Shown here in pieces: positions 39,521-43,258 of a stretch of DNA of 64,000 nt (positions are counted from its first letter, which is position 1; each line of letters opens with the position of its first letter). Made by a program: the position numbers and the translations under genes. The DNA is from Lachnospiraceae bacterium. Lineage in GTDB: Bacteria; Bacillota; Clostridia; Lachnospirales; Lachnospiraceae. Under the pieces are notes generated by a model that did not search any database, was not told the origin of the DNA, and saw only the letters and a program-made list of their open reading frames with translations. Location: contig JAFSYI010000034.1 in assembly GCA_017450065.1 (NCBI GenBank), forward strand, positions 1-64,000, given 5' to 3'.

Positions 39521-40687
39521 ATGGATTTTTCTTTATCAAAAGAACATGAAATGGCGAGACAGTTATTTAAGGAATTCGCCGAGAATGAAGTAAAGCCTCT
39601 TGCTCAGGAGATCGATGAGCAGCACAGGTTCCCCAGGGAGACTGTTGATAAGATGGCTAAGTACGGTTTCTTAGGTATTCCTGTACCCAAGGAGTACGGC
39701 GGACAGGGATGTGATATCCTTACATACGCTATGTGTGTTGAGGAACTCTCCAAGGTTTGCGGTACTACAGGCGTTATCGTTTCGGCACATACTTCACTGT
39801 GTGTTGATCCTATCATGACCTTCGGTACGGAAGAACAGAAGCAGAAATACGCAGTACCTTTGGCAAAGGGTGAGAAGCTTGGTGCTTTCGGTCTTACCGA
39901 GCCCGGAGCAGGAACAGATGCACAGGGTCAGCAGACCAAGGCTGTACTTGATGGTGATGAGTGGGTACTTAACGGTTCCAAGTGCTTCATTACAAACGGT
40001 AAGGAAGCAGATGTATACGTAATCTTTGCAGTTACAGGCAAGGTAGAGAAGCGTGGCAAGATGATGAAGGAGATATCCGCATTCATCGTTGAAAAGGGAA
40101 CCCCCGGCTTTACCTTCGGTACCAAGGAAAACAAGATGGGTATCTGCGGTTCATCAACATATGAGCTTATCTTTACAGACTGCCGTATCCCGAAGGACAA
40201 CCTTCTTGGAAAGCAGGGCAAGGGCTTCAATATAGCAATGCATACACTTGACGGTGGACGTATCGGTATTGCCGCTCAGGCACTCGGCCTGGCAGCAGGC
40301 GCTCTTGAGACTACAATTAATTACGTTAAGGAGAGGAAGCAGTTCGGTCGTGCGATCGGAGCATTCCAGAACACCCAGTTCCAGCTTGCAGACATGGCTA
40401 CAAAGGTAGAGGCTGCAAGGATGCTTGTTTACAAGGCAGCACGTGCAAAGGATCAGTATCAGAAGGATGGCAAGACATCCTACTCTGTAGAGGCTGCTAT
40501 GGCTAAGCTGTGTGCCGCTGAGGTGGCAATGGAAGTTACAACCAAGGCTGTACAGCTTCACGGTGGTTACGGATACATCAAGGAGTATGATGTTGAGCGT
40601 ATGATGCGTGATGCCAAGATCACCGAGATCTACGAAGGAACCAGCGAAGTTCAGCGAATGGTCATCTCCGCGAACATACTTAAGTAA
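39521..40687 (+). CDS. bcd: butyryl-CoA dehydrogenase
   Basis: A 388-residue acyl-CoA dehydrogenase. With EtfAB it reduces crotonyl-CoA to butyryl-CoA and, in clostridial complexes, couples this to ferredoxin reduction. It shows the FAD-binding FGLTEPGAGTDAQG, FITNGKEADVYVIFA, the mid-region ALGLAAGALE, RKQFGRAIGAFQNTQFQLADMA, HGGYGYIKEYDVERMMRDAKITEIYEGTSEV with the catalytic Glu in YEGTSE. GGAGG precedes the ATG. A 349-base structured gap separates it from etfB. Confidence 0.96.
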   Translation: MDFSLSKEHEMARQLFKEFAENEVKPLAQEIDEQHRFPRETVDKMAKYGFLGIPVPKEYGGQGCDILTYAMCVEELSKVCGTTGVIVSAHTSLCVDPIMTFGTEEQKQKYAVPLAKGEKLGAFGLTEPGAGTDAQGQQTKAVLDGDEWVLNGSKCFITNGKEADVYVIFAVTGKVEKRGKMMKEISAFIVEKGTPGFTFGTKENKMGICGSSTYELIFTDCRIPKDNLLGKQGKGFNIAMHTLDGGRIGIAAQALGLAAGALETTINYVKERKQFGRAIGAFQNTQFQLADMATKVEAARMLVYKAARAKDQYQKDGKTSYSVEAAMAKLCAAEVAMEVTTKAVQLHGGYGYIKEYDVERMMRDAKITEIYEGTSEVQRMVISANILK

Positions 40688-40757: not shown

Positions 40758-40799
40758 GCAGTTGCAACGCAACTGCGCGATCGAAAATGCGAAGCATTT
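40758..40799. repeat. two perfect small hairpins before the 45-bp array
   Basis: GCAGTTGC-AAC-GCAACTGC (40758-40776) and AAATGC-GAA-GCATTT (40785-40799). The second merges with the first unit of the tandem array. The 68 bases from the bcd stop to here hold no gene. Confidence 0.75.
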
Positions 40800-41010
40800 G
40801 AGATCTCGCGTCTTAAAAGAAGCAAGAGATATCAATAAGCATTTGAGATCTCGCGTCTTAAAAGAAGCAGGAGATATCAATAAGCATTTGAGATCTCGCG
40901 TCTTAAAAGAAGCAGGAGATATCAATAAGCATTTGAGATCTCGCGTCTTAAAAGAAGCAGGAGATATCAATAAGCATTTGAGATCTCGTGTCTTTAAAAG
41001 CAAGAGATAA
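40794..41010 (+). repeat. five 45-bp hairpin repeats between bcd and etfB
   Basis: Units start at 40794, 40839, 40884, 40929 and 40974, exactly 45 bases apart; the last is shortened and degenerate. Each unit forms a long stem: TTGAGATCTC pairs with GAGATATCAA in 9 of 10 positions, enclosing GCGTCTT paired with AAGAAGC. Units two to four are nearly identical. Confidence 0.93.
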
Positions 41011-41036: not shown

Positions 41037-41822
41037 ATGAAAGTAGTAGTATGTATTAAACAGGTTCCGGATACAAAGGGCGGCGTTAAGTTCAATCCCG
41101 ACGGAACACTTGATAGAGGTGCCATGCTTGCGATCATGAATCCCGATGATAAGGCAGGTTTGGAAGCAGCGCTCAGATTAAAGGATGAATACGGTGCAGA
41201 GGTTACAGTACTTACAATGGGTCTTCCCAAGGCTACGGACGTACTTCGCGAGGCATTGGCAATGGGCGCAGACAAGGGTGTACTCGTAACAGACCGCGTA
41301 CTTGGCGGTGCTGATACATGGGCTACATCAACCACAATAGCAGGTGCACTCAGGAATCTTGAGTATGATCTTATCATCACAGGACGTCAGGCTATCGATG
41401 GTGATACGGCACAGGTTGGTCCTCAGATCGCAGAGCATCTCGGACTTCCCGTAATTTCATATGCACAGGAAATAAAGATCGATGGAGACAAGGTTATCGT
41501 TAAGCGTCAGTATGATGACCGTTATCATATGCTTGAAGCTAAGATGCCCTGCCTTATAACCGCTCTTTCAGAACTGAATGAGCCCAGATATATGACACCC
41601 GGCGGAATCTTTGATGCAGTTGCTGCAGAGATTACCACATGGGGCCGTGCAGACCTTAAGGATGTTGAGGACGGTAACTTAGGACTTAACGGATCACCTA
41701 CCAAGATTGCAAAGGCATCCGACAAGGTTCGTAAGGGCGCAGGTGAGAAGGTTACACCCGAATCACCCGAAGAAGCAGTAGCATATATCGTTGGTAAGTT
41801 AGACGAGAAGCATATCATATGA
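41037..41822 (+). CDS. etfB: electron transfer flavoprotein, beta subunit
   Basis: A 261-residue EtfB/FixA protein: MKVVVCIKQVPDTKG at the start, NPDDKAGLEAALRLKD, the signature LIITGRQAIDGDTAQVGPQIAEHLGLP. Partner of EtfA in the complex with butyryl-CoA dehydrogenase. GAAAGGA precedes the ATG. A tandem hairpin array lies just upstream and two structured elements just downstream. Confidence 0.96.
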   Translation: MKVVVCIKQVPDTKGGVKFNPDGTLDRGAMLAIMNPDDKAGLEAALRLKDEYGAEVTVLTMGLPKATDVLREALAMGADKGVLVTDRVLGGADTWATSTTIAGALRNLEYDLIITGRQAIDGDTAQVGPQIAEHLGLPVISYAQEIKIDGDKVIVKRQYDDRYHMLEAKMPCLITALSELNEPRYMTPGGIFDAVAAEITTWGRADLKDVEDGNLGLNGSPTKIAKASDKVRKGAGEKVTPESPEEAVAYIVGKLDEKHII

Positions 41823-41974
41823 TTGATATAAGGTCGAAAAGTCGGCATACGTCGTGCCAGCACGTAAGGATGACCGACCTTGAGACCTTAACAAACATGA
41901 GCAAGGAGCGCGGCAGTGCGGAATGCGAATGTTTGTAGCATCACGGGAGCAAAGCGAAGTGATGCGTATATCAA
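41823..41974 (+). repeat. structured RNA-like element, copy 1, between etfB and etfA
   Basis: The outer arms are TTGATATA (41823-41830) and TATATCAA (41967-41974). Inner stems: AAGGTC/GACCTT (41830-41835 with 41876-41881), ACAAACAT/ATGTTTGT (41891-41898 with 41929-41936), GCGC-GGCA-GTGC (41908-41919) and GCATCAC/GTGATGC (41938-41944 with 41959-41965). Copy 2 directly follows and keeps all of these stems with changed bases. Confidence 0.85.
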
Positions 41975-42156
41975 GATATAAGGTCGAAAAGTCGGCATAC
42001 GTCGTGCCTGCGAAGCGAGGCAAGTAAGGATGCCTGACCTTGAGACCTTAACACGAATGAGCAAGTAGTCCGGCAGGACGGATTGCGGATTCGTGTAGCG
42101 ACGCATCGCCAGTCCTTTAGGACATCGCGAGAGTGAAACGGAGCGATGCGTATATC
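41975..42156 (+). repeat. structured RNA-like element, copy 2, between etfB and etfA
   Basis: The outer arms are GATATA and TATATC. Stems: AAGGTC/GACCTT kept; ACACGAAT/ATTCGTGT (42051-42058 with 42089-42096); GTCC-GGCA-GGAC (42068-42079); GCATCGC/GCGATGC (42103-42109 with 42143-42149). It is about 30 bases longer than copy 1 because of extra small hairpins such as GTCC-TTTA-GGAC (42112-42123). Confidence 0.85.
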
Positions 42157-42184
42157 ATAAAAAAGAAAGGATAGGAAAAACATT

Positions 42185-43258
42185 ATGAAAATGACTCCTG
42201 AACAGATTGCGCAGTACAAGGGTGTCTTCGTATTTGCGCAGCAGGTTGACAATAAGGTCAGCGGTATCGCATATGAATTACTTGGAAAGGCTAAAGAGCT
42301 TGCAGAGTCTCTCGAGACCAAGGAGGTTACAGCCGTTCTTATCGGATCTGATGTAAAATCACTTGCAGACTCTCTTGCAGAATACGGTGCAGACAAGGTT
42401 ATCGTTGTAGATGATCCCGAGCTTAAGGAATACAGAACAGAGCCTTATGCACATGCTCTTTCATCGGTTATCAACGAGTTCAAGCCTGAGATCGTTCTGG
42501 TTGGCGCAACAGCTATCGGACGTGATCTCGGCCCTACAGTATCAGCCCGTGTTGAGACAGGACTTACGGCTGACTGTACAGTACTTGATATTGGTGATTT
42601 TCCTCTTCAGCCGGTTCCCGGCAAAGAGGATGAGCAGCTTCACGGACAGCTTCTTATGACACGTCCCGCATTCGGCGGTAATACAATAGCTACTATCGCC
42701 TGCCCTGACAACCGTCCTCAGATGGCTACGGTACGTCCCGGCGTTATGCAGAAGATCGAGCCCAAGAAGGGTGCAAAGGCAGAGGTTATAGAGTTCAATC
42801 CCGGTTTCACACCTAACAACAGATATGTAACCATTAAGGAAGTTGTTAAGGCTGTATCGGATGTTAAGGATATCATGGATGCCAAGATCCTTGTATCAGG
42901 CGGACGTGGTGTAGGATCACCCGAGAACTTCAAGATCCTTGAGGACCTCGCAGAGGCACTTGGCGGACAGGTATCATGCTCGCGTGCGGTTGTAGATGCA
43001 GGCTGGAAGCCCAAGGATATGCAGGTAGGACAGACAGGTAAGACAGTACGTCCCAACCTTTATGTGGCAGTAGGTATTTCAGGTGCCATCCAGCACGTTG
43101 CAGGTATGGAGGAATCAGACGTCATCGTTGCGATAAACAAGGATGAGGATGCTCCTATCTTTGATGTGGCTGACTACGGTGTTGTAGGAGATCTTAACAA
43201 GATCGTTCCGAAGCTTACCGAGGAGATCAAGGCTGCCAAGGCTAAGAAGCAGGATTGA
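42185..43258 (+). CDS. etfA: electron transfer flavoprotein, alpha subunit
   Basis: A 357-residue EtfA/FixB protein. The N-terminal part resembles EtfB ([12 protein letters not shown]). The C-terminal FAD domain has [61 protein letters not shown] and [21 protein letters not shown]. It completes the butyryl-CoA dehydrogenase/Etf complex and is the last gene of the operon. GAAAGGA lies upstream. A strong terminator follows at 43314. Confidence 0.96.

Follow-up and report, generated by a model that had tools for sequence, protein, structure and literature searches.

The region described here lies in a window of 64,000 nucleotides (contig JAFSYI010000034.1, positions 1 to 64,000, of the Lachnospiraceae bacterium assembly GCA_017450065.1). 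On its forward strand, an open reading frame for the small subunit of electron transfer flavoprotein (etfB, 261 amino acids, positions 41037 to 41822) ends with a TGA stop codon at 41820 to 41822, and the frame for the large subunit (etfA) runs from 42185 to 43258. These gene names are labels given in a preliminary description of this DNA on the basis of the open reading frames, and we have kept them as such; etfB is matched in 36 of 61 genomes, including that of the host (E ≤ 1e-60). Between the two genes are two structured units in forward orientation, copy 1 at 41824 to 41973 and copy 2 at 41974 to 42157, which adjoin each other head to tail and leave a gap of 27 nt before etfA. On the other side of etfB, a 45-bp tandem repeat (4.6 copies with 98% matches, window positions 40792 to 41000) separates it from an open reading frame at 39521 to 40687, which we take to be bcd-like. 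This repeat is open in the forward frame as repeats of KHLRSRVLKEAGDIN (open reading frame 40762 to 41010).

The preliminary description had reported tandem copies that share stems and differ by paired changes, and each stem that it named can be located in the sequence. In the minimum free energy (MFE) fold of copy 1, a closing helix joins TTGATATA (41823 to 41830), which is directly 3' of the etfB stop codon and begins 1 base ahead of the Rfam start, to TATATCAA (41967 to 41974). The same fold has a first arm at 41830 to 41889 (stem AAGGTC/GACCTT, 41830 to 41835 and 41884 to 41889, with an internal hairpin), a second arm at 41891 to 41936 (ACAAACAT/ATGTTTGT, 41891 to 41898 and 41929 to 41936, with the apical hairpin GCGC-GGCA-GTGC at 41908 to 41919; this is helix 2 of the covariation analysis), and a third arm at 41938 to 41965 (GCATCAC/GTGATGC, 41938 to 41944 and 41959 to 41965; helix 6 of the covariation count). 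A position check places the copy 2 counterpart of the second arm, ACACGAAT/ATTCGTGT, at 42051 to 42058 and 42089 to 42096, its apical hairpin GTCC-GGCA-GGAC at 42068 to 42079, and its third arm GCATCGC/GCGATGC at 42103 to 42109 and 42143 to 42149. Copy 2 has additional insertions in its first and third arms and is followed by no 3' tail. The outer arm TTGATATA/TATATCAA, which had been assigned to both copies, is exact in copy 1, but its equivalent in copy 2 is GATATA/TATATC.

Both units match the Rfam family RF01699 (Clostridiales-1), which has the same multi-arm structure, and both span the whole model above the curated gathering cut-off of 48 bits. The cmscan score is 93.6 bits for copy 1 (model positions 1 to 166 of 166), which belongs to the tail-less class described below, and 49.6 bits, barely above the cut-off, for copy 2. 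A covariance model built in this analysis (R1) scores them at 107.6 and 79.7 bits, respectively, with both copies in its training set. The two window units thus add new copies to an RNA family that was already known, and the earlier remark that they fit no named one is wrong. The earlier division into two adjacent units stands, but their exact lengths do not, since the Rfam model gives 150 and 184 bases in place of 152 and 182. Rfam lists the family as type "Gene; sRNA." In the table of Weinberg et al. (2010) (PMC2864571), Clostridiales-1 is entered as a probable RNA from Clostridiales and human gut, with an "n" for both cis-regulation and switch, meaning that it is probably not either.

The family is abundant among relatives of the host. 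The host genome has 22 matches, 17 of them above the cut-off, and copies lie at or near the ends of contigs C10, C42, C46, C67, C69, C82, and C90 of this assembly (G000), so the host copy number may be an underestimate. At least one match is present in 30 of the 61 genomes, the host's included (29 above the cut-off), and in a Lachnospiraceae-wide sample, for which up to 13 candidates per genome were scored, 112 of 200 genomes have matches (87 above the cut-off). In a single genome, G098, we counted 111 matches at E ≤ 0.001, and tandem copies occur in several genomes. The core pattern of Clostridiales-1 has 0 matches in viral contigs, on which basis we rejected carriage of the element by phage. 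The end patterns gave 0 matches in these contigs for one end and 15, which may be due to chance, for the other.

The RNA structure of the family is strongly supported. The fold energies of copy 1 and copy 2 have z scores of -5.5 and -6.1 relative to 200 dinucleotide shuffles, none of which equaled them. A comparison of the predicted pairs of the two copies gives 7 double changes that remain paired, 1 single change that remains paired, 4 broken pairs, 42 unchanged pairs, and 1 pair at a gap. In an alignment of 34 copies from many genomes, 95.4% of cells are paired, compared with 73.8% in column shuffles; changes on both sides are found in 26 of 29 pairs; the covariation score is 0.574, compared with 0.181 in shuffles; and the signal is lost when partners are slid by 1 to 3 columns. 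Although the consensus structure was predicted from the same 34-copy alignment on which it was later scored, which favors structure, the margin is large. Absence of covariation, which the preliminary description had named as the evidence that would count against its proposal of selection for structure, was looked for over these 34 copies; covariation is present, and the proposal holds. The outer (closing) helix is absent from the 34-copy consensus and was assessed separately. With one locus taken for each of 33 upstream gene families, it has a mean of 7.9 Watson-Crick pairs, compared with 4.1 when partners are shuffled and a maximum of 4.75 in 1000 shuffles. Extension of this helix into the flanking bases is weak when taken alone, with 6 of 1000 shuffles as high for Watson-Crick pairs and 117 of 1000 when G-U pairs are included. 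Between orthologous copies, many pairs are preserved by double changes and others are broken (e.g., 6 broken pairs and 1 double change between L334 and L338).

Some copies of the family are longer than the Rfam model. In an alignment of the flanks of the G098 copies, a tail of ~30 nt extends beyond the 3' end of the Rfam core and ends in CCTTTTGACCCC(T/A)ACATC, the mirror of the 5' end, GATACCAGGGTCAAAAGG. The Rfam match stops at the core and excludes this tail, which completes the terminal inverted repeat of the tailed copies. Complete G098 copies are ~183 bp, with GATACCAGGGTCAAAAGG and CCTTTTGACCCC(T/A)ACATC as imperfect terminal inverted repeats, and such repeats are found in tailed copies of G098, the host genome, and others. 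(A copy was scored as tailed if it had TTTTGACCCC with ≤2 mismatches within 55 nt, a rule that labels L325, L326, and L328 doubtfully; a cruder count also accepted a second motif for the set of named genomes.) Direct repeats of at least 5 bp flank 34 of 42 complete G098 elements and are exactly 7 bp in 28 of them, compared with 6.6% of shuffled flank pairs; the duplicated target is an AT-rich 7-mer, roughly ATNNNAT. In the host genome, an identical 7-mer is present on either side of all 3 elements for which both ends were read (by eye). We conclude that part of the family is a miniature inverted-repeat transposon, a conclusion that is well supported.

Shortened and variant forms also occur. 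G098 contains mini-derivatives of 44, 75 to 76, and 78 bp (L285, L287, L289, L292, L293, L294, and L298) with direct repeats on both sides, which retain just the terminal repeats or, beyond these ends, a portion of a single arm. A second subfamily in the named genomes (L154, L155, and L214) has ends of the form GAGCC... and ...GGGCAACTC-like, with 7-bp direct repeats starting with AT (by eye). In the host's genus, the third arms of L353, L361, L363, and L366 share a palindromic insert (CATAAGG..CCTTATG-like), as if a small repeat had entered the loop. A partner transposase gene would be expected to have ends that match GATNNNGGGGTCAAAAG, with 7-bp duplications. No such gene was recognized, with frames judged by eye, around 20 stretches at solo 3' ends in G098, which are part of such ends, or at 13 ends in the host genome; what adjoins these solo ends is a mini-derivative, a remnant of the core, or other sequence. 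When ends up to 4.5 kb apart were paired at 303 loci, those with direct repeats of at least 5 bp delimited elements of 69 and 180 to 199 bp only. By eye, no autonomous partner with these ends was recognized among the frames around the 303 loci and the solo ends of G098 and the host genome.

Many copies, including both window units, have no 3' tail, and in the host's genus these copies are oriented relative to the neighboring genes. The genus set comprises the host's genus plus genomes G052 and G057 (80 copies among those listed, 72 of them tail-less). Of the tail-less copies, 50 of 72 lie between two co-directional sense genes. The stop codon of the upstream sense gene lies no more than 12 nt from the first helix, at the 5' end of the element, in 43 of 59 cases, while 0 of 11 antisense genes end within 12 nt of the 3' end of a tail-less copy. 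The 43 stop-adjoining copies represent 33 upstream gene families. In 21 of the 43, the closing helix takes in the whole upstream stop codon, in 8 it takes in part of it, and in 14 none of it. In the window, the etfB stop codon is just outside the closing helix, and copy 1, by its Rfam bounds, starts one base past it, a placement that the preliminary description had overlooked. The stop codons at the 43 copies are 22 TGA, 19 TAA, and 2 TAG. A signal for stop-codon read-through or recoding was considered and set aside, given that TAA and TAG stops also occur. Upstream genes include those for a sigma-70 factor, thiolase, phosphofructokinase, glutamine synthetase, orotidine monophosphate (OMP) decarboxylase, nucleotidyltransferases, RNase HII, and hydroxyacyl-CoA dehydrogenase. 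Among 20 upstream proteins scanned with Pfam, one of which had no Pfam match, there was no common pathway, and a shared gene function was rejected for this sample.

In contrast with the tail-less copies, the tailed copies of G098 adjoin gene ends in either orientation (sense, 4 of 13; antisense, 6 of 17). The difference between 43:0 sense to antisense in the tail-less genus set and 4:6 in tailed G098 copies is significant by Fisher's test (P = 9e-6), as it is when each gene family is counted once (33:0 versus 4:6; P = 3e-5) or when the tailed copies of the genus are added to those of G098 (43:0 versus 6:6; P = 3e-5). Under a looser rule, which accepts any open frame of at least 120 codons within 15 nt, the tail-less genus set has 45 sense and 5 antisense cases among 69 copies, compared with 3 and 5 among 45 tailed G098 copies (P = 0.0024). 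We also tallied a pattern-search set of named genomes, those listed being mostly Lachnospiraceae and other Clostridiales. From its 142 matches, 78 were picked by hand for gene context (with cut-off, partial, and weak matches dropped), and 86 were used under the looser rule. Tail-less copies in this set give 20 sense and 6 antisense cases of 74 (P = 0.009), and 30 of 73 lie between two sense genes, a smaller share than among the genus copies (50 of 72). Beyond G098, tailed copies lean toward the sense orientation: in the genus set, 2 of 3 sense stop codons and 0 of 3 antisense ones lie within 12 nt, and in the named set 4 of 12 are sense and 1 is antisense by the looser rule. With all sets pooled under the looser rule, the ratio is 65:11 for tail-less and 7:6 for tailed copies (P = 0.015), but without G098 and the genus set there is no difference (20:6 versus 4:1). 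The contrast between tailed and tail-less copies, and with it the indication that insertion is blind to orientation, therefore rests on G098, because tailed copies elsewhere lean sense. The sense placement of the tail-less copies of the genus at stop codons is strong and stands without that contrast.

Comparison of orthologous sites indicates that occupancy varies among close relatives. Among 28 genus genomes, the etfB-etfA junction is occupied in 7, lacks the element in 20, and is ambiguous in 1. On an etfB tree of 22 genomes (6 of the 28 rows were left out by a start-motif filter), the occupied rows require 3 changes. The occupied sites hold three types of element (by eye), while their flanks are 92 to 99% identical in the three genomes compared, and in G021 one copy is followed by an apparent fused remnant; the remnant and the differing types imply that these arrays have been shuffled. 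At the pyrF site (OMP decarboxylase domain), some genomes have the element or its remnants and other close ones have gaps of 7 to 23 nt; in G032 the closing helix extends into the last pyrF codons (CCTGTGAAACA/TGTTTCACAGG). The end of etfB is alike with and without the element and pyrF C termini are similar among close relatives, which implies that these stop codons are natural and are not truncations. At the etf site, signs of a 7-bp duplication are suggestive in G026 only, where 6 of 7 positions match (~5% by chance); the host genome, G036, and G017 have 3 mismatches. The mobility that the preliminary description had thought possible for the unit is supported for the family, since its tailed members carry inverted repeats at their termini and direct repeats of 7 bp and since 20 of the 28 junctions are empty, but not for the two window copies, which have no 3' terminal repeat and no clear duplication. 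The window units are probably old, immobile copies of Clostridiales-1. At another site (L329 in G017 and L333 in G013), flanks that are 94% and 90% identical enclose elements of clearly different type in the same gap, which could be explained by rapid turnover, by conversion, or by insertions that recurred at this site. The type also differs between close genomes at L006/L049, and rearrangement or loss has affected several orthologous copies. Whole types that differ at L006/L049 and L329/L333 point to fast turnover.

Several explanations can be weighed against these observations. The most serious rival to the one that we favor, although we think it rather unlikely, is that the tail-less copies are neutral remnants: the family would be a DNA transposon only, its hairpins would serve transposition, and its compensatory changes would have arisen in the mobile lineage or through hairpin-templated repair. 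Placement at stop codons would then be survivorship, since insertion at a stop is harmless and a target T joined to the GA of the element end creates a stop. Mobility is well supported by the direct repeats in G098 and the 7-mers in the host genome, the target fits stop-codon contexts, tailed copies, too, adjoin gene ends (4 of 13 sense and 6 of 17 antisense), the small sets of tailed copies elsewhere lean sense (2:0 and 4:1), and the rearrangement or loss of several orthologous copies is as expected of remnants. However, survivorship predicts equal orientation, because either end of the G098 element would make the same stop, and the tail-less copies of the genus are 43:0 (45:5 by the looser rule), compared with 4:6 (3:5) for tailed G098 copies. 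In addition, the closing helix is kept at 33 loci with its strands ~110 to 190 nt apart, a distance over which local hairpin repair could not easily maintain them.

Two other readings take the element to be a regulator of a more conventional kind. A cis-regulator of the downstream gene (a riboswitch, attenuator, or translational switch) would be consistent with the sense start that lies 16 to 47 nt away in 19 of 59 cases in the genus set. Yet the element is tightly aligned with the upstream stop codon and not with the downstream start, the "n" entries for cis-regulation and switch in the table of Weinberg et al. (PMC2864571) are against it, and the lack of a shared pathway among the upstream genes scanned argues against a metabolite switch; we regard this reading as very improbable. 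A family of trans-acting small RNA genes, with their own transcription and merely located between genes, seems to us very improbable, even though it agrees with the Rfam type, with the "n" for cis-regulation in the same table (PMC2864571), and with the discrete, multicopy nature of the element. Most tail-less copies of the genus (50 of 72) are co-directional between sense genes, and, judging from position alone, a start at a stop codon leaves little space for a promoter of their own.

The reading that we prefer, with slightly better than even confidence, is that Clostridiales-1 is a transposon-derived intercistronic mRNA element that works like the stop-proximal repetitive extragenic palindromes (REPs) of Escherichia coli. 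The tail-less copies would descend from tailed ones: sense copies that land at a stop codon inside an operon would be kept, and the tail and target duplication would decay while the folded core persists with compensatory changes. The closing helix would come to begin at the upstream stop codon or to include it. Once the terminating ribosome departs, the multi-arm structure could close behind the stop codon, block 3'-5' decay of the upstream cistron, and perhaps slow or modulate termination, and the element might in this way set the ratio of upstream to downstream protein, as reported for stop-proximal REPs in E. coli. At the window locus, the retained RNA would act in cis on the etfB-etfA message. 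This functional step, the block to decay or the effect on termination in cis, is drawn by analogy, and we put it forward tentatively, at somewhat less than an even chance. A more specific version, which we consider doubtful, is that the element is a portable 3'-end RNA module: the host would domesticate sense copies that land at a stop codon, with the closing helix rebuilt to embed or abut the stop. If that were true, formation of the helix would report the presence of a ribosome at termination and would couple upstream translation either to decay of the message or to the gene that follows.

The tailed and tail-less forms can be compared with two known classes of repeat. Miniature inverted-repeat transposable elements (MITEs) are short, have terminal inverted repeats, duplicate their target, and reach high copy number. 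Tailed Clostridiales-1 copies have the terminal inverted repeats, which the window copies, without a tail, lack; target-site duplication is present in G098 (34 of 42), and empty orthologous sites are found at etfB-etfA, with the pyrF site variable. In size, terminal repeats, target duplication, and number of copies, tailed Clostridiales-1 elements resemble the MITEs of prokaryotes (reviewed in PMC10969869). Unlike MITEs, Clostridiales-1 has a conserved, covarying multi-arm structure as its body, and its tail-less copies appear to be kept in one orientation. REPs and the bacterial interspersed mosaic elements (BIMEs) that they form are based on a palindrome of 20 to 40 bp that is mobilized by a RAYT (Y1) transposase without target duplication. 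Membership of Clostridiales-1 in this class was rejected, as tailed copies are ~183 bp with 7-bp direct repeats. The two are alike in being repeats that fold in mRNA and that sometimes adjoin a stop codon (for REPs, see PMC5082802), and E. coli REPs within 15 nt of stop codons are described as blocking 3'-5' decay and stalling ribosomes (Liang, Rudd, and Deutscher, 2015, as cited in PMC5082802). They differ in that the REP is a palindrome of 20 to 40 bp and Clostridiales-1 a multi-arm structure of 150 to 180 nt, in that tailed Clostridiales-1 elements leave 7-bp duplications, and in that the stop codon lies wholly within the closing helix in 21 of 43 tail-less copies.

In the portion of Weinberg et al. 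(2010) that describes the family (PMC2864571), neither mobility nor placement at stop codons is mentioned, and no link of Clostridiales-1 to transposition or stop codons was found among titles and abstract openings in the open-access literature. Relative to the open-access literature searched, the transposon nature of the family and its placement at stop codons appear to be new. If this reading is correct, a family that Rfam lists as an sRNA gene would acquire both a derivation from a miniature transposon and a place where its action can be tested, namely the stop codon of the cistron in front. Clostridia would then have their own version of the stop-proximal REPs, one that is matched in 112 of the 200 genomes sampled from a single bacterial family. 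The elements lie behind central genes, including those for etfB, thiolase, hydroxyacyl-CoA dehydrogenase, phosphofructokinase, and pyrF, and close relatives that have or lack the element at the same orthologous site would constitute a natural experiment.
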